The position numbers and the translations under genes are program-made. Shown in pieces: positions 2,556 through 42,230 of a stretch of 64,000 bases of DNA. The notes under the pieces were generated by a model. The model did not search any database and was not told the DNA's origin. It was given only the letters and a program-made list of their open reading frames with translations. The stretch is from Gammaproteobacteria bacterium (GTDB taxonomy: Bacteria > Pseudomonadota > Gammaproteobacteria > UBA6429 > Thiohalophilaceae): positions 1 through 64,000 of the forward strand of contig JAOULO010000005.1 in the NCBI GenBank assembly GCA_029881995.1, read 5' to 3'. Position 1 is the stretch's first letter, and each line of letters opens with the position of its first letter.

Positions 2556-3326
2556 TTACTCAGCACCAAATGAATGAATAACGTCATCCACATTGGCTCC
2601 TTCTCCTTTTCTTACTTTATACAGTCCCTTTTGTAGACGAATAATGTTAGTTTCATTTATGCCCGCTTCTTCAAACAAAGTAAGTATTTCACTTTCTGTA
2701 AAATACCGTTGATATTCATGACTCCAAAACCAGTCATAAGCAGTATGTCTTGCATTCTTAAACCCCATTTCCAAACCATTTCTATTTATCACAAAGATTG
2801 GCGCTAACAAAGGACTTATTAACCACAATATTCGTTTCGGTAACCTTTTCAGAATAAACCGTATAGGCTCTAACAACGTAGTCGCAATAGTCACCATGTA
2901 AAATGATATAACGAGTTCGCCTCGATCATTCATATTTTTCACAATATTCTGCAATGCTGCTTCTGCATCACTAACATGCTGTATTGCGCCAAGCATATAA
3001 ATAAAGTCCGCTTTAAACTCTACTTCCTTAGCGTCACCCTGGATAACCTCAATTTTTTGATTGCTACTAAACTTTTCGCTTTGATAATCTGCTGCATCTT
3101 TAGCCAGTTCCACTGAAATTATTTTTTTCGCATTAGCTAGTTCGTTAAGCGCCCATACATGACGTCCATTTCCTGAACAAATATCAGCGATAACTTTACC
3201 ATTCAGATAGTCACACCAAATTCCACAGTCCTTAAACAGCCTTCTGTGAAAGGTTTTTTTGCTATCAACTACAGTTTGTTTCGTCCACTGCCAGCCAAAT
3301 GACTCAACTGTTCTTTGAGTTTGCAT
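2556..3326 (-). CDS. class I SAM-dependent methyltransferase
   Basis: 256 residues with motif I in ADICSGNGRHVWAL (about residues 48-61), an acidic SVELAKDA loop and the catalytic-core segment DFIYMLGAIQHVSDAEAAL. Central stretches around residues 145-190 are hydrophobic and basic (RFILKRLPKRILWLISPL), as in methyltransferases that act on membrane-bound substrates. The substrate is unknown. Unlike other genes in the operon it is preceded by a long untranslated gap (3327-3753), so it may have its own promoter or sit after lost DNA. It could also be called a UbiE/UbiG-like methylase, but no quinone function is implied. Confidence 0.8.
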   Translation of the reverse strand: MQTQRTVESFGWQWTKQTVVDSKKTFHRRLFKDCGIWCDYLNGKVIADICSGNGRHVWALNELANAKKIISVELAKDAADYQSEKFSSNQKIEVIQGDAKEVEFKADFIYMLGAIQHVSDAEAALQNIVKNMNDRGELVISFYMVTIATTLLEPIRFILKRLPKRILWLISPLLAPIFVINRNGLEMGFKNARHTAYDWFWSHEYQRYFTESEILTLFEEAGINETNIIRLQKGLYKVRKGEGANVDDVIHSFGAE

Positions 3327-3753
3327 ATTTATTACCTTTATCTAGAAATAATCCATACTTGTTTTTGTGTATTAGCCACTCAAACCAAATCAATGTAACA
3401 AATTGTGCTTTACGGTTATTTAAACAAGATTAAAAATTACAGATTTCATTGTGCTTCTATTATTTTCTAATGATAATCAACATCACCTTCGCACATAATA
3501 TTTAATAGCATCCAAGAAAATTATCTGCTGTCTATTATTATTGAACTTTTTACCAAAAACACCGGGGTAATAATTCAAATATATACAATAACTACGACAT
3601 ATGTTCAGAATATATCCATTGCAGTAACTTTCTAAGAAATAAATAACCTATGACAGGTCTATATTTCTATATATAACAGTAATTAATTATAATAAAACTT
3701 AATTTTCCTCGAGAAGTCGTCGGTAAATATTAAATTATACTGGGCAAAATAGC
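3327..3753. other. 427-bp AT-rich gap inside the polysaccharide operon
   Basis: I see no convincing coding region, RNA gene or repeat here. The stretch is very AT-rich, with many short poly-A/T and TATA runs, so promoter-like hexamers occur by chance and I do not call one. All flanking genes run on the minus strand with small gaps or overlaps, which makes a gap of this size unusual. It may be the scar of a lost gene or an internal promoter region. Confidence 0.5.
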
Positions 3754-5523: not shown

Positions 5524-6599
5524 GCAAATCTTTTTTCTAATATATTAAGGCTTTCATTTTTTGCGCGAAGCAACCATTCTTGATCTTCAATAAAATCTTT
5601 CATGGCAATTTCCAACGATTGTTCAAAATCTTTGGTGTCAACTAAGTTTATGTATTTTTTATAGTTAACCCAGTCATATTGATATTTAGATGGTATCACT
5701 CCATCCCATGTTGATATTGGTGGCTGAATAAGTGCGCCATTAACACCATCCTCTACAATTTCTCTTAATGCATATACATCTGTAGCGATGATTGCCAGCC
5801 CAAATGAAAGGGCCTCTAATGCAACCATGCCAAATGATTCACCATATGTTGGAAATAACAACACATCTGAATTTTTCATGAATTTTTCATGAATTTCTTC
5901 GCGAGTGAATTCTGCGTTATATAAATTAATACCATTACACTCATCCACAGCTTGTTGGTATGTCGGTGGTAAGTGTGTAATCAAATCCAGTGTGCAATTA
6001 TTATATTTTGAATATATTTTACTGAATGCATTTAATAGTGCGCCTCCCCCCTTTATTTCAAATTGAGTACCAACAAACAGGAATCGACATTTATCAATAT
6101 TTGGGTTTTGTACTTTATCTAATTTCTGCTTAATATATGGATACTGGACTTTAGATTTTCTGTAAACCTCATCTCCAAATAGATATTTTATACTTTGCCT
6201 ACAAGCTTCACTTAAACATCTAATTTCAACGCATCTATCAGATAATAATGCATATTTTATTAAATAGCGGTAGATAAACATCGCCCGCATATTATACGCG
6301 ACAAATGACCAAGGGTTATCAACATCAACAATATATTTACCCGTAAGCATTATACCACCCCAGAGATAAACAATATCTTCATTCTTAAGGCTCGTTGGTC
6401 GAAACTTGATATTTAATAACGGTAGAATTTGCTTCCAAGATACCTTAGTCTTCTTAGAAATCGAATTATTCTTACTTACTTGATTGCCTACTCTGCCATC
6501 TAATATATCTAAATTTATTACTTTATTCATTGGCCATCTTTTAATTGTATCAAGCTGTCGATCTCTCATATATTCATGTGGATAAAAATACACTTTCAT
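5517..6599 (-). CDS. GT4-family glycosyltransferase
   Basis: 360-residue GT-B glycosyltransferase. The donor-domain signatures are CRFLFVGTQFEIKGG, the segment SDVLLFPTYGESFGM and the EX7E pair in ESFGMVALEALSFG. The N-terminal domain is divergent and lacks the common GGxE motif. It probably transfers a sugar during assembly of the lipid-linked unit. The stop overlaps the next gene (GT2) by 7 nt. The operon thus carries three glycosyltransferases in the visible part. Specificity cannot be inferred. Confidence 0.84.
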   Translation of the reverse strand: MKVYFYPHEYMRDRQLDTIKRWPMNKVINLDILDGRVGNQVSKNNSISKKTKVSWKQILPLLNIKFRPTSLKNEDIVYLWGGIMLTGKYIVDVDNPWSFVAYNMRAMFIYRYLIKYALLSDRCVEIRCLSEACRQSIKYLFGDEVYRKSKVQYPYIKQKLDKVQNPNIDKCRFLFVGTQFEIKGGGALLNAFSKIYSKYNNCTLDLITHLPPTYQQAVDECNGINLYNAEFTREEIHEKFMKNSDVLLFPTYGESFGMVALEALSFGLAIIATDVYALREIVEDGVNGALIQPPISTWDGVIPSKYQYDWVNYKKYINLVDTKDFEQSLEIAMKDFIEDQEWLLRAKNESLNILEKRFAC

Positions 6600-36842: not shown

Positions 36843-37691
36843 TTGCAAGATAACAAACAGGAAAATGCGATCCAGTATTGCGAACATATGGTGCGCAGTC
36901 ATTATGAGAATTTCCCCGTTGCCTCATGGTTCCTGCCTGCACACTTACGCAGACCTATCGCCGTTATCTATGCCTTTGCCAGAACCGCCGATGATATAGC
37001 CGATGAAGGCAATGCCCCTGCAGAGCAACGACTCGCGGAACTGGATGCCTATGGCCAACAACTGGAAAACATGCAAAAAAGTGAAGATCCGGTTTTTATC
37101 GCACTACAAGCTATAAGCCAACAGCATGATTTACCCGTACAACTGTTTCATGATCTGCTAACGGCTTTTAAAATGGATGTCACAAAAAAGCGGTATACCC
37201 ATTTTGATGAATTGCTATTTTATTGCCAGCATTCCGCCAATCCTATTGGCCGACTACTGGTGCATCTCAACAGGAAAGTTAGTGCAGAAAGTCTTAAGTA
37301 TTCAGACAATATCTGCACCGCCCTGCAGCTCATCAATTTCTATCAGGATCTTGAACAGGACTATCATGAGAATGACCGCATTTATATTCCGCAGGATGAA
37401 ATGCTGTCTTATGGTATCTCAGAACAACACTTTAAAAAACTGGAATCGGATAATGCCATGCAAAACCTGATGCAATTCCAGATCACTCGTGCCAGGGAAA
37501 TGCTATTATCCGGTAAACGATTGGGTACAATACTGCCTGGTCGCATGGGGTTTGAACTTCGCATGGTTGTTGCCGGTGGCCTGACAGTTTGTAAAAAGTT
37601 ACTCAATAGTAAAAGCAATGTCTTTGCACGCCCCAGACTCAATAAACTCGACTGGTTAAATATGCTCTTTCAAGCCACAATAGCAAAATAA
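36843..37691 (+). CDS. hpnC: hydroxysqualene synthase HpnC
   Basis: 282-residue trans-isoprenyl diphosphate synthase (squalene/phytoene synthase fold). The two Asp-rich motifs are RTADDIADEGN (about 45-55) and FYQDLEQDYHENDRIYIP (about 168-185). With HpnD and HpnE it turns farnesyl diphosphate into squalene: HpnC converts presqualene diphosphate to hydroxysqualene. The start is a TTG preceded by AGGAAAGG. The gene begins the tight hpnC-hpnD-hpnE group. Confidence 0.93.
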   Translation: MQDNKQENAIQYCEHMVRSHYENFPVASWFLPAHLRRPIAVIYAFARTADDIADEGNAPAEQRLAELDAYGQQLENMQKSEDPVFIALQAISQQHDLPVQLFHDLLTAFKMDVTKKRYTHFDELLFYCQHSANPIGRLLVHLNRKVSAESLKYSDNICTALQLINFYQDLEQDYHENDRIYIPQDEMLSYGISEQHFKKLESDNAMQNLMQFQITRAREMLLSGKRLGTILPGRMGFELRMVVAGGLTVCKKLLNSKSNVFARPRLNKLDWLNMLFQATIAK

Positions 37692-37714
37692 TCCGCCTAT
37701 ACTCGTCTGATACC

Positions 37715-38587
37715 ATGACCCCCGACAATTATTGCCAGGAAAAGGCCGCCAGTAGTGGCTCCAGTTTTTATTACAGCTTCCTGTTTTTGCCCGAGCAAAA
37801 GCGCAAGGCCATCATTGCCCTGTATGCCTTCTGCCGTGAAGTCGATGATGTGGTTGATGCCCAGACCGAAGTACATATCAAACAAACCAAACTGCACTGG
37901 TGGCGTAATGAAATACAGGCACTATTTGATGGTCATCCACAACACCCGGTGACACGCGCCCTGCAAGCCGTCATTCAGGATTTCAATCTACCTCAGGAAC
38001 AGTTTGAAGAAATCATCGATGGCATGGAAATGGATTTATTGCAAAACCGTTATGACAGCTTTAAAGATCTCAGCCTCTATTGTCATCGTGTCGCCAGTGT
38101 GGTTGGCCTGTTATCCATAGAGATCTTTGGTTATCAGGATCGACAAACTCGAAAATTTGCCCATGACCTGGGCATGGCCTTCCAGCTCACCAATATCGTG
38201 CGTGATGTCTACGAAGACTCAACTCGAAACCGTATTTACCTGCCACAGGATGAGCTGGCCGAATTCAATGTGGATGATAAAACTATTCTCCAACATCAAA
38301 ATAATGAAGCCTTTGTTGCCTTAATAAAGTTTCAGATCAAACGTGCCCGTGACTACTATGACAAAGCCCTGTCTGAGATCCCCGATGTTGACCGTTATGC
38401 CCAACGGGCCGCACTGGCCATGGCAAGGATTTATCTCGAGACACTCAATGAGATCGAGACAGATGGTTGTCGTGTACTGGAACATCGTATTAAATTAACA
38501 CCTATTAGAAAGGTATGGCTGACCTGGAAGACCTTACGTCAGGAAAAACGCCGGTATAAAAAATGGCTGCGACAGAATCCAAAATAG
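37715..38587 (+). CDS. hpnD: presqualene diphosphate synthase HpnD
   Basis: 290 residues, same fold as HpnC but a different step: it condenses two farnesyl diphosphates to presqualene diphosphate. The Asp-rich motifs are FCREVDDVVDAQ (about 41-52) and LTNIVRDVYEDSTRNRIYLP (about 160-180). It starts 23 nt after hpnC and its 3' end overlaps hpnE by 25 nt. A phytoene synthase role is less likely because hpnC and hpnE are adjacent. Confidence 0.93.
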   Translation: MTPDNYCQEKAASSGSSFYYSFLFLPEQKRKAIIALYAFCREVDDVVDAQTEVHIKQTKLHWWRNEIQALFDGHPQHPVTRALQAVIQDFNLPQEQFEEIIDGMEMDLLQNRYDSFKDLSLYCHRVASVVGLLSIEIFGYQDRQTRKFAHDLGMAFQLTNIVRDVYEDSTRNRIYLPQDELAEFNVDDKTILQHQNNEAFVALIKFQIKRARDYYDKALSEIPDVDRYAQRAALAMARIYLETLNEIETDGCRVLEHRIKLTPIRKVWLTWKTLRQEKRRYKKWLRQNPK

Positions 38588-39930
38588 AAATAAAAAAACA
38601 ACGTGTCATTATCATCGGTGGTGGCTGGGCCGGGCTGGCCGCTGCCGTGGAATTGTCGCGTCATAGTGAATTCAAAGTCACCCTCTATGAAGCGGCACGA
38701 CAGCTGGGTGGGCGTGCCCGTCGGGTACCTTTCAATGAACAGGGTGTCGACAATGGCCAGCACCTGTTGATTGGTGCATACAAGGATACCCTGACATTAA
38801 TAGAATCACTCGGCGTCAATCTTGAAGAAAAATTCCTGCGCCAGCCACTGGATCTGACCATTCGAAGTCCATTAAAACGGCAAACAATCAAACTCAAAGC
38901 CTCCAGACTCCCTGCTCCCATGCATTTACTGATGGCCCTGCTGAGCTGTCGAGGTTTCAGTTTAATAGAACGTATCCGGGCCCTGCAATTTGGCACCCGT
39001 CTGTTTATGCATGGGTTTAAGTTCAAGGGTGATATCTCAGTAGCTGAACTGATGTATCGATACCGGCAGCCAAAAAGCCTGGTAGAAAAATTCTGGGGGC
39101 CATTATGTATCGCTATTATGAATACCCCAGTAGCCCAGGCCTCTGCCTCGGTCTTTCTTAGAGTGTTGCACGATTGTTTTCGAAATCACCAACAGGATTC
39201 AGATCTACTGTTTGCCAAAGACAACTTAGGTAAACTGTTACCAGACCCCGCTACTGATTTTATCGAGAAAAACAATAACACCATCAAGCTTGGCCAACGG
39301 ATTACCCATCTGGAGATCGACAAAGGTAAACTCTATGGCATGATGATCGATGATCAAATGGTCGATGCCGATCATATTATCCTGGCCACATCACCTTCGG
39401 CCTGCCACAGACTGATCAGTGATCAACCCGATCTCAAGCAACTGGAACAACAACTGGCAAGCTATCACTACCAACCGATCTGCACGATTTATTTACAATA
39501 TCCCCCCGAAGTCAGTACAGGGAGTCCGATGATAGGTATCCTCGGCGGCTATGCCCAATGGCTGTTTGACCGTAGTATCTATGGTCAGGATGGTCTGATG
39601 GCCGTGGTCATCAGTAGCGAAGGGCCACACATGGAACTCGATAATGAGCAGCTTATCGAACAGATCAGCAAAGAACTGTCCCTGCTTTATCCTGACTGGC
39701 CTGCACCAGAGACCTCCATGGTCATTAGAGAAAAGCGCGCCACCTTCCACTGCTCGCCCGACATCAATGAAAACCGCCCCGACAACACCACCCCCGTTGA
39801 AGGTTTATGGCTGGCTGGTGACTATACCAACACTGGATACCCCGCCACCCTCGAAGGTGCAGTACGAAGTGGGTTAGAATGTGCCCACCAGCTCATCGAT
39901 AAACTTAAACCGGAGCAAACCACCGGCTAA
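38563..39930 (+). CDS. hpnE: hydroxysqualene dehydroxylase HpnE
   Basis: 455-residue FAD-dependent amine oxidase-like protein. The dinucleotide motif VIIIGGGWAGLAAAVELSRH (about 15-34) and GGRARRVPF open the FAD domain; GLWLAGDYTNTGYPATLEGA closes it near the C-terminus. It reduces hydroxysqualene to squalene. It completes the HpnCDE route, which bacteria use for hopanoid or squalene production. No squalene-hopene cyclase is in the window. Confidence 0.92.
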   Translation: MAATESKIEIKKQRVIIIGGGWAGLAAAVELSRHSEFKVTLYEAARQLGGRARRVPFNEQGVDNGQHLLIGAYKDTLTLIESLGVNLEEKFLRQPLDLTIRSPLKRQTIKLKASRLPAPMHLLMALLSCRGFSLIERIRALQFGTRLFMHGFKFKGDISVAELMYRYRQPKSLVEKFWGPLCIAIMNTPVAQASASVFLRVLHDCFRNHQQDSDLLFAKDNLGKLLPDPATDFIEKNNNTIKLGQRITHLEIDKGKLYGMMIDDQMVDADHIILATSPSACHRLISDQPDLKQLEQQLASYHYQPICTIYLQYPPEVSTGSPMIGILGGYAQWLFDRSIYGQDGLMAVVISSEGPHMELDNEQLIEQISKELSLLYPDWPAPETSMVIREKRATFHCSPDINENRPDNTTPVEGLWLAGDYTNTGYPATLEGAVRSGLECAHQLIDKLKPEQTTG

Positions 39931-39944
39931 AGCAGGACCCAAAC

Positions 39945-40691
39945 GTGACCAACATAAAGCAATACCAGCCCGCACAAGATATTCTCAAAGATCGTATCAT
40001 CCTCATCACCGGTGCCACCGGAGGTATTGGCAGTGAAGTCAGCAAAACCTGCGCAGCCAGTGGTGCCACCGTCATCCTGCTCGACAAATCCATTCCCAAA
40101 CTGGAAAAACTCTATGACGAAATAGAACAGGCCGGTCACCCCCAGGCCGCCATCATCCCGGCAGATCTGGCCGGAGCCACACCCGCCGATTACAACATCA
40201 TCATCGACACCATCGAAAAAGAATTCGGCAGACTGGATGGCCTACTACACTGCGCCGCATTTCTAGGTAACCGCTCCCCCATCGAGCAATACAACCTCGA
40301 AGAGTGGAACAAGTCCATGCAAATCAACCTCACAGCGCCTTTTTTATTAACACGCGCCTGTATGCCGCTGTTAAAAAAATCCGAAGATGCATCGGTTGTG
40401 TTTACCACTGCCAGTATGGGTCGTCATGGCAAAGCCTACTGGGGAGCCTACGGCATCGCCAATGCGGCAATTGAGAATATGATGCAGATACTTGCCGATG
40501 AAGTTGAGAACAATACCAATATTCGAGTGAATAGTATTGATCCGGGGGAAGTGCATACGCCGTTTTGGGTTAAGGTGTTTCCGGGGGTGGATCCTGCTAA
40601 CTGGGCGAAGGCTGTGGATGTTGTTGGTGGGTTTGTTTATTTGCTTGGGGCGGATTCGAAGGGTGAAACTGGGAAGCAGTTTAGTCTCTAA
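39945..40691 (+). CDS. YciK-like short-chain dehydrogenase/reductase, catalytic Lys replaced
   Basis: 248-residue SDR. The NAD(P) motif is LITGATGGIGSEVSK (about 20-34), with NLTAPFLLTRACMPLL and VFTTASMGRHGKAYWGAYGI. The start is a GTG with AGGA upstream. In canonical SDRs the catalytic Tyr is followed four residues later by Lys (YxxxK). Here the matching site reads YGIAN, with Asn. E. coli YciK and most relatives keep the Lys at this site. The Ser of the triad seems present (TTASMG). In Pseudomonas a YciK-like gene follows ubiG and mupP; here rmuC and hpnCDE lie between. Its substrate is not known. Confidence 0.85.
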   Translation: MTNIKQYQPAQDILKDRIILITGATGGIGSEVSKTCAASGATVILLDKSIPKLEKLYDEIEQAGHPQAAIIPADLAGATPADYNIIIDTIEKEFGRLDGLLHCAAFLGNRSPIEQYNLEEWNKSMQINLTAPFLLTRACMPLLKKSEDASVVFTTASMGRHGKAYWGAYGIANAAIENMMQILADEVENNTNIRVNSIDPGEVHTPFWVKVFPGVDPANWAKAVDVVGGFVYLLGADSKGETGKQFSL

Positions 40692-40718
40692 ATTGGTTCC
40701 CTCTAAATTGGTTCCCTC
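40689..40718 (+). repeat. 15-bp tandem duplication at the SDR stop codon
   Basis: TAAATTGGTTCCCTC is present twice in a row, at 40689-40703 and 40704-40718. The first copy includes the stop codon of the SDR gene, and the second runs into the REP-like unit. It looks like a slippage or insertion scar. Confidence 0.9.
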
Positions 40719-40747
40719 TCCCTTGGGGAGAGGGCTAGGGTGAGGGG
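40714..40747 (+). repeat. REP-like palindrome
   Basis: A stem CCCTCTCC/GGAGAGGG is followed by CTAGGGTGAGGGG, the same design as unit 1 at 35147-35180. It follows the SDR gene and may terminate or stabilise its transcript. Confidence 0.8.
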
Positions 40748-40749
40748 CT

Positions 40750-41052
40750 GGTTGTTATTACCTTTTAATTTGAATCGACTATCGTCGAGCTGGATCTAAG
40801 TCAGGTCTCGTCCTGACAGACGAGGAACTTTTTTCAGCACAAAAAAGTTCCCAAAAAGTGCTCCCCCTAAGATGGCGCAAACATGTGTTCGGGTTTTGGT
40901 TTTTTGTTGAGCATTGGCAGAAGGGGCATCCCAGCCCCTCTGCCAATGCGGCGACATCCCTGTCGCCCCCTATCTATATTTTAAAAAACAAAAACCCAAA
41001 CACGCGCCATCAAAGGGGGCAACCCCACAGCGAATTAGCAACCTTGTTTAAA
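40750..41052 (+). repeat. structured repeat, copy A (putative structured RNA)
   Basis: No protein is encoded. In order: hairpin H1 (TCGAC/GTCGA with loop TATC, 40775-40788); hairpin H2 (GTCAGG/CCTGAC, 40800-40817), whose loop CTCGT pairs with ACGAG at 40820-40824 (pseudoknot); hairpin H3 (11 bp, 40824-40851), whose loop AGCAC pairs with GTGCT at 40858-40862 (second pseudoknot). A 141-bp palindromic body (40871-41011) follows, bounded by GATGGCGC/GCGCCATC and holding the stem GCATTGGCAGA/TCTGCCAATGC and the hairpin GGCGACA/TGTCGCC. The tail has GGGG-GCAA-CCCC and AGCGAATTAGC. Ends are set by where similarity to copy B fades. Copy B keeps all pairings with different bases, which supports a selected structure. 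Function unknown. Confidence 0.8.
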
Positions 41053-41056
41053 AACC

Positions 41057-41239
41057 TGTAAGTTTTAGTAATGTGTCGTTGTTCATAAAAACACCAACCA
41101 CAACCCCCACCCCAATCAACCCGTTGCACCACAACACAGGCAAGAGTAGTCTTATCCCTATTATGTCTTTATATGGGAAATAGGTGGAATCTGCCTATTA
41201 CGGTAAATTACGGAATCTGTTTAAGACACTGTTAGGCGT
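41057..41239. other. non-coding stretch before the lipoprotein gene, with an attC-like fragment
   Basis: No gene is seen. The last bases before the lipoprotein ATG are GTTAGGC (41231-41237), which fits the GTTRRRY core site that precedes a gene cassette in integrons. I could not find the matching partner core or a full attC fold, so this is weak. A short direct repeat (GGAATCTG) occurs twice near 41187-41219. Confidence 0.3.
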
Positions 41240-41671
41240 ATGGAAAGGTTTGTGAAAATATTAATTTTAGTTTTACTTCTATTTTCTCTAATGGGGTGTG
41301 GAAGAAGTATTGAATACGATTCTAAGTATGAACTACTTGGAAAGACAGTAGTCTTTAAAACGCCAATGCTGTATACAAGTAATCTAAAAAGAAACATTAT
41401 TGGTAGCGAAGGGTATAAATACAATCGGTATTTAATTAGAGAGAGAGAAGTCCAGTCATATTACGATCATTTCTATAAATCTGGGAAAGCAGAATTCGAG
41501 AAGATAAAAAAAGGTATGGCGTTTAAAATTAATAAAAGTTATGAGGTGATCCCTTGGGGTTTACAAACAGCATTTTCTTCTAAGTATCGTATTTTAGTTT
41601 TATTAGACGATAAAAAACATGCGTCTATAATTTTAGAAGTGAAAATTAGAGAAGATGAAATACTTAGGTAA
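41240..41671 (+). CDS. small lipoprotein of unknown function
   Basis: 143 residues. A lipoprotein signal peptide (FVKILILVLLLFSLMGC) ends in the lipobox LMGC, so the mature protein should be lipidated at Cys20. The remainder is basic and has no domain I recognise; it includes KYELLGKTVVF and KYRILVLLDDKKHASIILEV, suggesting a beta-rich fold. The gene is markedly AT-rich compared with its neighbours, uses A/T-ending codons and lies between two inverted repeat copies, all signs of acquisition. The ATG has no good Shine-Dalgarno; a GTG four codons in follows GGAAAGG and could be the true start. Confidence 0.7.
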   Translation: MERFVKILILVLLLFSLMGCGRSIEYDSKYELLGKTVVFKTPMLYTSNLKRNIIGSEGYKYNRYLIREREVQSYYDHFYKSGKAEFEKIKKGMAFKINKSYEVIPWGLQTAFSSKYRILVLLDDKKHASIILEVKIREDEILR

Positions 41672-41689
41672 GCGATCATGGGGTCAGAT

Positions 41690-41878
41690 TGAACCTCCCC
41701 CGGTTTAACGGACACTTTTAATCGGTAGCAAGCGCTACCCAAAAGGAGTGTCTCAATGAGCAGAACAGGTAAACGTAAGCCATACAAAACGTACACGAAA
41801 GAGTTTAAACTGGAAGCCCTGAAACTGATGACAACATCAGATAAACCGGCCAGTGAAATAAATAATCAAGTGAAATAA
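41690..41878 (+). mobile_element. IS3-family insertion sequence remnant with truncated transposase OrfA
   Basis: The left end reads TGAACCTCCCCCGGTTTAAC then GGACACTTTT, resembling IS3-family terminal repeats. An AGGAGTG ribosome site precedes an ATG at 41756. The open frame gives MSRTGKRKPYKTYTKEFKLE and ALKLMTTSDKPASEI, typical of the start of IS3 OrfA, then leaves homology and stops after 40 codons. The rest of OrfA, OrfB and the right end are missing. A 17-bp tandem duplication (AGTGAAATAAATAATCA, 41852-41868 and 41869-41885) covers the break. Confidence 0.75.
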
Positions 41879-41921
41879 ATAATCAGGGACAGACCACGAA
41901 TAATCTCCCCTCTCCTATTAA

Positions 41922-42230
41922 TTTAATCAAGACAGCCAATTCGCTTCGGGTTTAGTGCCGACTTTGATGGCGCGTGTTTGGGTTTTGGTTTTTTAAAATA
42001 TAGATAGGTGGCCGCAGGGATGCGGCCGCATTGGCAGAGGGGCTGGGATGCCCCTTCTGCCAATGCTCAACAAAAAACCAAAACCCAAGCACACGTCTGC
42101 GCCATCTCAGGAGGAGGACTTTTTGGATACTTTTTTGTCCTTAAAAAAGTATCTCGACCATCCGTTCGAGAACGGATTTAGATCATCATCGCGATAGCGA
42201 TTCAAACTAAAAAGATAATGCCAAGAACCC
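41922..42230 (-). repeat. structured repeat, copy B, inverted relative to copy A
   Basis: Read on the minus strand this repeats copy A's order. H1: ATCGC/GCGAT with the same TATC loop (42188-42201). H2: ATCCGT/ACGGAT (42160-42177), loop pairing with TCGAG at 42153-42157. H3: GATACTTTTTT/AAAAAAGTATC (42126-42153), loop AGGAC pairing with GTCCT at 42115-42119. The palindromic body is at 41966-42106, with the identical stem GCATTGGCAGA/TCTGCCAATGC and a changed hairpin GGCCGCA/TGCGGCC. The tail is AGCGAATTGGC. The rest of 41879-42342 holds only this element and the relic at 42247-42276; I see no gene. Confidence 0.8.

Follow-up and report, generated by a model that had tools for sequence, protein, structure and literature searches.

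The window, the whole stretch of 64,000 nucleotides that was analysed, carries at 40750-42230 one unit of about 1.5 kb, and the two inverted structured copies within it (copies A and B, hereafter arms) are the two ends of this unit, facing each other. The original prediction had reported the copies but missed that they are the ends of a single cargo unit, that about 31 such arms are present in the genome, and that the cargo starts at what its sequence marks as an attI-like site. The element corresponds to a motif already known as an RNA, TwoAYGGAY (Rfam RF01731), which here has a new setting as the end of a composite unit. In our reading, to which we assign a probability of roughly 65%, these units are composite integron platforms that lack an integrase, have structured inverted ends and are filled in trans by the chromosomal integron integrase IntI. 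A unit would then consist, in order, of an arm, an attI-like landing site, a captured single-gene cassette and a second arm. IntI acting in trans would insert cassettes at those attI sites that the arms enclose, and the folded arms, as single-stranded DNA or as RNA, would be the ends that enable the mobility of the unit, or alternatively might insulate the cassettes and terminate their transcripts. Should TwoAYGGAY act on its own strand, transcripts running out of the unit would contain it in sense whichever way they leave. A broader and more tentative proposal is an integron distributed over the genome, in which one chromosomal integrase would serve many scattered attI platforms bracketed by arms, TwoAYGGAY would be the element end, and the arm pairs would give the platforms mobility and perhaps insulation at the RNA level. 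Both proposals are made somewhat less likely by the 11 integrase loci above the TIGR02249 cut-off that the leader search covered, as 7/11 of these lack a leader match at E 5 or better.

Structure of the window unit and its arms

The structured core of arm A (40769..41011, plus strand) comprises helix H1, H2 with pseudoknot 1, H3 with pseudoknot 2 and a long stem with two hairpins; it scores 259 bits with an HMM of the arms, a model of which this copy is itself a part. Outside it stands a GC-rich hairpin (40712..40747, plus strand) that is weakly similar to Whalefall-1 (19.9 bits for a gathering score of 37, E 0.036), and the flanks of the aligned copies show similar hairpins outside many, though not all, other arms. 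The inner end of arm A is of the distal type (CAACCCCACAGCGAATTAGC.., 41012..41065, plus strand) and is followed by a stretch common to attI-side arms (CAGGCAAGAGTAGTCTTA.., 41132..41176, plus strand), in the region of which locus L046 matches the window at 91.7% over 96 bp, running through the leader, and L040 at 73.5% over 147 bp. The attI-like leader (41177..41237, plus strand) matches our leader model at E 3.4e-12, being itself one of the five sequences of that model, and ends in the core GTTAGGC (41231-41237), which is preceded by ..GGTAAATTACGGAATCTGTTTAAGACACT and followed after 2 bp by the ATG of the cargo gene. This gene (41240..41671, plus strand) encodes 143 aa with a lipoprotein-like signal (LMGCG, recognised by eye) and has no match in Pfam or PADLOC. 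Behind it, a truncated stretch (41690..41895, plus strand) occupies the position expected for an attC site; no attC candidate was detected in 40750-42230. A 40-aa ORF at 41756-41875 resembles, by eye alone, the start of an IS3-type transposase, and the Pfam scan gave no match for it. The unit is closed by arm B on the minus strand, with an inner end of the distal type (AAAGTCGGCACTAAACCCGAAGCGAATTGG.., 41922..41965) and a structured core (41966..42206) that scores 260 bits with the arm HMM, of which it is likewise a part. No integrase ORF lies between the arms. To the left of arm A, at 36843-40691, a hopanoid/squalene-like cluster is present together with an SDR gene; the SDR was assigned by Pfam, and two squalene-synthase-like proteins and an amine-oxidase-like protein were named by eye only. 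A plasmid or phage origin was rejected, as no phage sequence matches the window unit and its single plasmid match covers 43 bp within the outer hairpin; one unit from another genus, g175 (see below), had no plasmid match either.

Copy A has 38 BLAST matches in the source genome, itself included, and copy B matches it at 41922-42212 on the minus strand with 84%; both inverted copies lie where they had been reported. Seventeen arm loci, the window and 16 fetched loci (L031-L046), contain 37 HMM segments, which by our own count represent about 31 arms. Neighbouring arms within 6 kb of each other are convergent in 11 cases, tandem in two (L033, L038) and divergent in none, and a twelfth convergent pair is formed through a partial arm detected by BLAST (L031 1920-2067). 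The genes between the arms are unrelated accessory genes that differ from site to site. In leader-side arms the inner end is often GATTGATCC..AGGAGTAGGCTTA, and many other arms end in GTCGGCACCAACCCCGAAGCGAATTGG; arm A of the window and the arm of L040 look like hybrids in their inner ends. This division is reminiscent of class 1 integrons with their 5' and 3' conserved segments. Some individual arms are altered: an insertion with ORFs resembling parts of transposases (L039 1818-3292) splits a right arm near the H3 region, an insertion of about 50 bp in L033 (2671-2961) adds small hairpins to the body hairpin (..CATCCATG.. / ..CATCCCTG..), and in genome G010 the arm body hairpin occurs in tandem with a spacing of about 370 bp at a contig end (C36:146075-146869). 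REP-like palindromes (GTAGGTTGGGTT..AACCCAAC and similar) are located just inside some arms (L037 ~3316-3350, L036 ~3420-3490).

The arms share a conserved fold, as had been proposed from the window alone. For 22 of the approximately 31 arms, aligned with MAFFT over 259 columns, a hand-written structure of 68 pairs was scored that includes both pseudoknots and leaves out H1, because MAFFT sets the 3' side of this helix out of register. Standard pairs occupy 95.2% of 1495 cells (85.0% after shuffling), two-sided changes occur in 35/68 pairs (shuffled mean 16.0, the observed value being reached in 0/500 shuffles), and covariation is 0.261 as against 0.083 in the shuffled alignments, a significance that is overstated because the arm copies are related. 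Control structures slid along the alignment, which remove the relatedness of the copies yet favour a structure read off one sequence, yielded two-sided changes in at most 12 pairs. The compensatory changes described between the two window copies were recovered in the sequence for H2 (GTCAGG/CCTGAC against ATCCGT/ACGGAT), H3 (GGAAC/GTTCC against GATAC/GTATC), both pseudoknots, in which a loop pairs with a downstream segment, and the body hairpin; the copies were also confirmed to be non-coding. The variable position of pseudoknot 1 shows three pair types (UA 14, AU 4, GC 4). Pseudoknot 2 is the weakest helix, with 69.3% paired cells in an alignment where MAFFT places its loop families poorly; by family, the loop and partner sets are AGCAC/GTGCT, AGGAC/GTCCT, GGCAA/TTGCC and CGGCC/GGCCG, and a four-pair variant TGTC/GACA is found as well. 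A simple terminator was rejected as an explanation: hairpins are present, but the pairing spans most of 240 bp and includes pseudoknots.

Relation to TwoAYGGAY and strand preference

The statement that the element was unrecognised was not supported. None of the Rfam families attains its gathering score in the window, but with permissive filters both bodies match the full RF01731 model slightly below its gathering score of 43, arm A at 40875..41013 on the minus strand (39.4 bits, E 2.3e-4) and arm B at 41964..42102 on the plus strand (40.5 bits, E 1.3e-4). For both copies this is the strand opposite to the one originally read. Genome-wide, RF01731 was detected at 14 places at E 0.01, 7/14 of them above the gathering score, with a top score of 50 bits; these places include copy A, and copy B is absent from that list though it was scored separately. 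The body stem and the two terminal hairpins match the full model, and sister copies exceed the threshold. In contrast to the Rfam entry, which consists of the body only, the body here belongs to a longer arm that also contains two further hairpins and two pseudoknots, and the arms stand as inverted pairs around genes. The window loops, read on the RNA strand, are AGGGAT and TGGGAT in both copies, and are therefore not strictly AYGGAY; both keep GGA, and ATGGAC or ATGGAT loops occur in some sister arms.

TwoAYGGAY has been listed as a probable RNA (PMC2864571), and binding of CsrA was proposed for RF01731 from motif matches (PMC4333381). The arms could be TwoAYGGAY-type 3'-UTRs or small RNAs to which CsrA/RsmA binds, with termination or silencing of the flanked gene's transcript as the effect, the inverted pair simply placing a sense copy downstream of the cargo in any orientation. 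Besides the body match and the published link to a CsrA-binding motif, this explanation draws on the distribution of wobble pairs. In structures predicted for both strands in three arm sets, wobble columns number 36 on the Rfam strand and 14 on the other (two-sided binomial P 0.003, for columns that are not independent), and wobble cells 64 and 18, respectively. The long stem S1 agrees, with 19 wobble cells on the Rfam strand as against 2 on the strand of the original reading. However, the arms of the source genome alone give 6 versus 4 columns, and in the hand-drawn structure taken as a whole the Rfam strand has 32 wobble cells as against 40 on the original strand, with pseudoknot 2, a poorly aligned helix, contributing 4 and 17, and one hairpin 0 and 12, ten of these at one position within the AYGGAY-type loop. 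The wobble data are thus mixed, and lean towards a function as a single strand, RNA or single-stranded DNA, on the Rfam strand. CsrA genes were detected in 37/37 genomes searched, with or without RF01731 matches, and do not discriminate because every searched genome has CsrA. We regard a purely RNA-based explanation as unlikely, since the hand-drawn structure has no overall strand bias; in addition, neither window hairpin loop is strictly AYGGAY, and RNA function alone would leave unexplained both the empty site and the attI-like leaders described below.

Integron parts and cargo genes

The integron core consensus is GTTRRRY, which the GTTAGGC of the window fits, and judged by its sequence the leader before the window cargo resembles an integron landing site that has no integrase of its own. 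A leader model was built from five sequences (the window, L036, L034, L040 and L199) and searched against 1.08 Mb of fetched loci. Outside the model, it matches the arm loci L046 (E 4.9e-12), L025 of the congeneric genome G002 (2.9e-5) and L044 (1.2e-3). Another match lies immediately upstream of the integron integrase gene intI in a relative, genome G017 (L232 2989-3045, E 2.8e-8), where the order is that expected of an integron: intI at 1486-2919 on the minus strand, the leader-like stretch, and an ORF from 3076 with a restriction-endonuclease match. Upstream of intI elsewhere, the model matches in G001 at E 9.4e-4 and weakly in the source genome at E 0.024, and the integrase locus of G010 reaches only E 0.49. 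In the source genome, clear attI-like leaders are present in 6/17 arm loci, four of the six being model sequences, and lie 55-165 bp inside one arm, reading inward. The leaders of L041 and L043 look degenerate, and none was recognised in 9/17 arm loci. Some unit copies thus appear to carry an attI-like site without an integrase, a site that IntI may use.

Behind the intI of the source genome (L239 4689-6095, TIGR02249 443 bits) lie its native attI (6182-6241) and two attC sites, and no arm was scored near intI in the seven integron loci scanned. The units of genus g175 have no leader match, and no IntI above the cut-off was found in these genomes, which indicates that arms exist apart from integron parts. 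A relaxed finder, which produced 4 false positives in a 65 kb control and 4 in the 64 kb window, detected attC-like sites in 2/8 arm loci scanned (L034 3982-4070 and 5002-5065; L043 3376-3432). It also detected such sites in the Acidiferrobacterales locus L199 (2815-2881, 3732-3822, 4239-4317), where they follow the leader and an arm-like H3 part, the only part through which this arm was detected. The strict finder, applied to the 17 arm loci, gave L043 and a candidate in L045 (2154-2212) that lies inside an ORF. An identical sequence (GAACTAAACCGCTTCGC.., followed by an ORF with a similar start) is present in L025 1-240 (G002:C95) and L236 ~550-665 (G001); it starts directly after GTT in both places, the attI-like site beside an arm in G002 and the attI beside intI in G001, a distribution as if both sites had been targeted by one element.

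Clusters of attC sites that lack an integrase are known as CALINs. The units resemble integrons and CALINs in having an attI-like site with a GTTRRRY core before the cargo start, varied accessory genes and, in some arm loci, attC-like sites. They differ in that neither the unit nor its attI-like site is accompanied by intI, in that structured inverted arms form the bounds, and in the existence of many small units rather than one array. Ten genes between arms were scanned with Pfam and PADLOC. Pfam assigned a DUF2971-like protein (just below the cut-off), an S41 peptidase, a porin-like protein, an AAA_13 protein and a cNMP-binding protein, whose gene stands between the two tandem arms in L033; two further genes have weaker domain matches, and 3/10, including the window gene, have none. 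PADLOC returned a match for 4/10 cargo proteins; among these, it places the AAA_13 protein in PDC-S06 (E 1.7e-245), a candidate defence family, and the DUF2971-like protein in PDC-S31 (E 3.3e-40).

Distribution, insertion sites and implications

Copy A has matches in 5/58 genomes of the relatives search, the source genome counted, and RF01731 in 24/369 genomes of the class sample (16 above the cut-off) and 0/14 controls. In three genomes of genus g175 (G193, G303 and G396), 12/13 neighbouring RF01731 matches less than 500 bp apart are oriented as in the window, the single exception being on contig C3 of G193. Among 26 loci of this genus that were fetched at RF01731 matches, 16 hold 17 convergent units of a left-type and a right-type arm, mostly about 100 bp apart, three hold four units with two left-type arms, six are one-armed, and L144 is inside out. 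In the latter (2568-3184, G193:C3) a left-type arm on the minus strand is followed by a right-type arm on the plus strand with 150 bp between them, the order expected where two units, or a circle, join. Two g175 sites are common to three species and two to two species, and at the two sites common to three species the ORFs beside the arms differ. The H3/pseudoknot-2 motif has a wider distribution, being identified in 18 stretches of named genomes, including Frateuria defendens (8, near stretch ends), Rhodanobacteraceae SCNH_5, Pseudofulvimonas, Acidiferrobacterales, a betaproteobacterium and one Eremiobacteraeota MAG. In eight named loci with this motif, neither RF01731 nor any other Rfam family was detected at E 0.01, so the motif either reaches beyond RF01731 or these loci hold partial arms.

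Insertion of one unit is shown by a clean empty site: in L035 the unit is flanked by a Rhomboid gene and prmC, both named by Pfam, and G002 has these genes 49 bp apart. The L041 unit, between secG/tRNA-Leu and nuoA, is absent from this position in G002, where no arm was scored in the gap and a phage-type integrase and other genes fill it. In G002 the SDR gene of the window locus also precedes an arm-like body, with different genes behind it, and therefore the window site itself may be old; in G010 (L101) other ORFs come after the SDR gene, with no BLAST match to an arm. The flanks of L040 are on two separate contigs in G002 and 6.6 kb apart in G010. The four loci compared thus comprise one clean empty site, one armless but occupied site, one partly shared site, and L040 with its separated flanks. 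No target-site duplication was seen by eye, with outer ends that are not base-precise even at the empty site, and no mobilising enzyme for the arms was found.

In an integron mobilization unit (IMU) the cargo is an integron fragment. The units might be ordinary MITE-bounded composites of the IMU or TIME-COMP kind, moved by a known transposase family and carrying integron parts as incidental cargo. This is the nearest known arrangement: two non-coding copies of about 250 bp flank a cargo and are inverted in the IMU cases (PMC13367494). Nevertheless we consider it improbable, because a search of the window for a Tn3-type terminal repeat, with a piece of the Tn21 repeat and up to 3 mismatches allowed, found none, and because the arms have a strongly structured, complex fold in which pairing is conserved. 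The units differ further in the number of arms, about 31 in 17 loci of one genome, and outer ends that are not base-precise define no 5-bp direct repeat. REPINs are intergenic, persistent inverted pairs of palindromes, and large REPIN-like repeats spread in trans by a Y1 transposase, with cargo trapped by chance, would account for the multi-copy intergenic inverted pairs and for the sites shared by two or three g175 species; yet this is very unlikely, given that the arms (about 240-300 bp) are far above the usual REP size, that G396, with 10 RF01731 places, has no Y1_Tnp match, and that 0/19 fetched Y1 loci (L157-L175) scored for arms. The source genome has two Y1 matches, one of them above the cut-off, and a Y1/RAYT driver was rejected on the lack of any such match in G396.

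A search of titles and abstract openings, including few subscription papers, found no description of this arrangement, and a PMC search with a short arm motif gave no result. The units would provide a context for an RNA family that was described in 2010 and that the sources cited above tie only to a predicted CsrA link. If the reading of the units as integron platforms filled in trans is true, an integron can own many landing sites outside its array, each of them separately movable, and this would explain some of the single accessory genes that lack a visible mobility gene.
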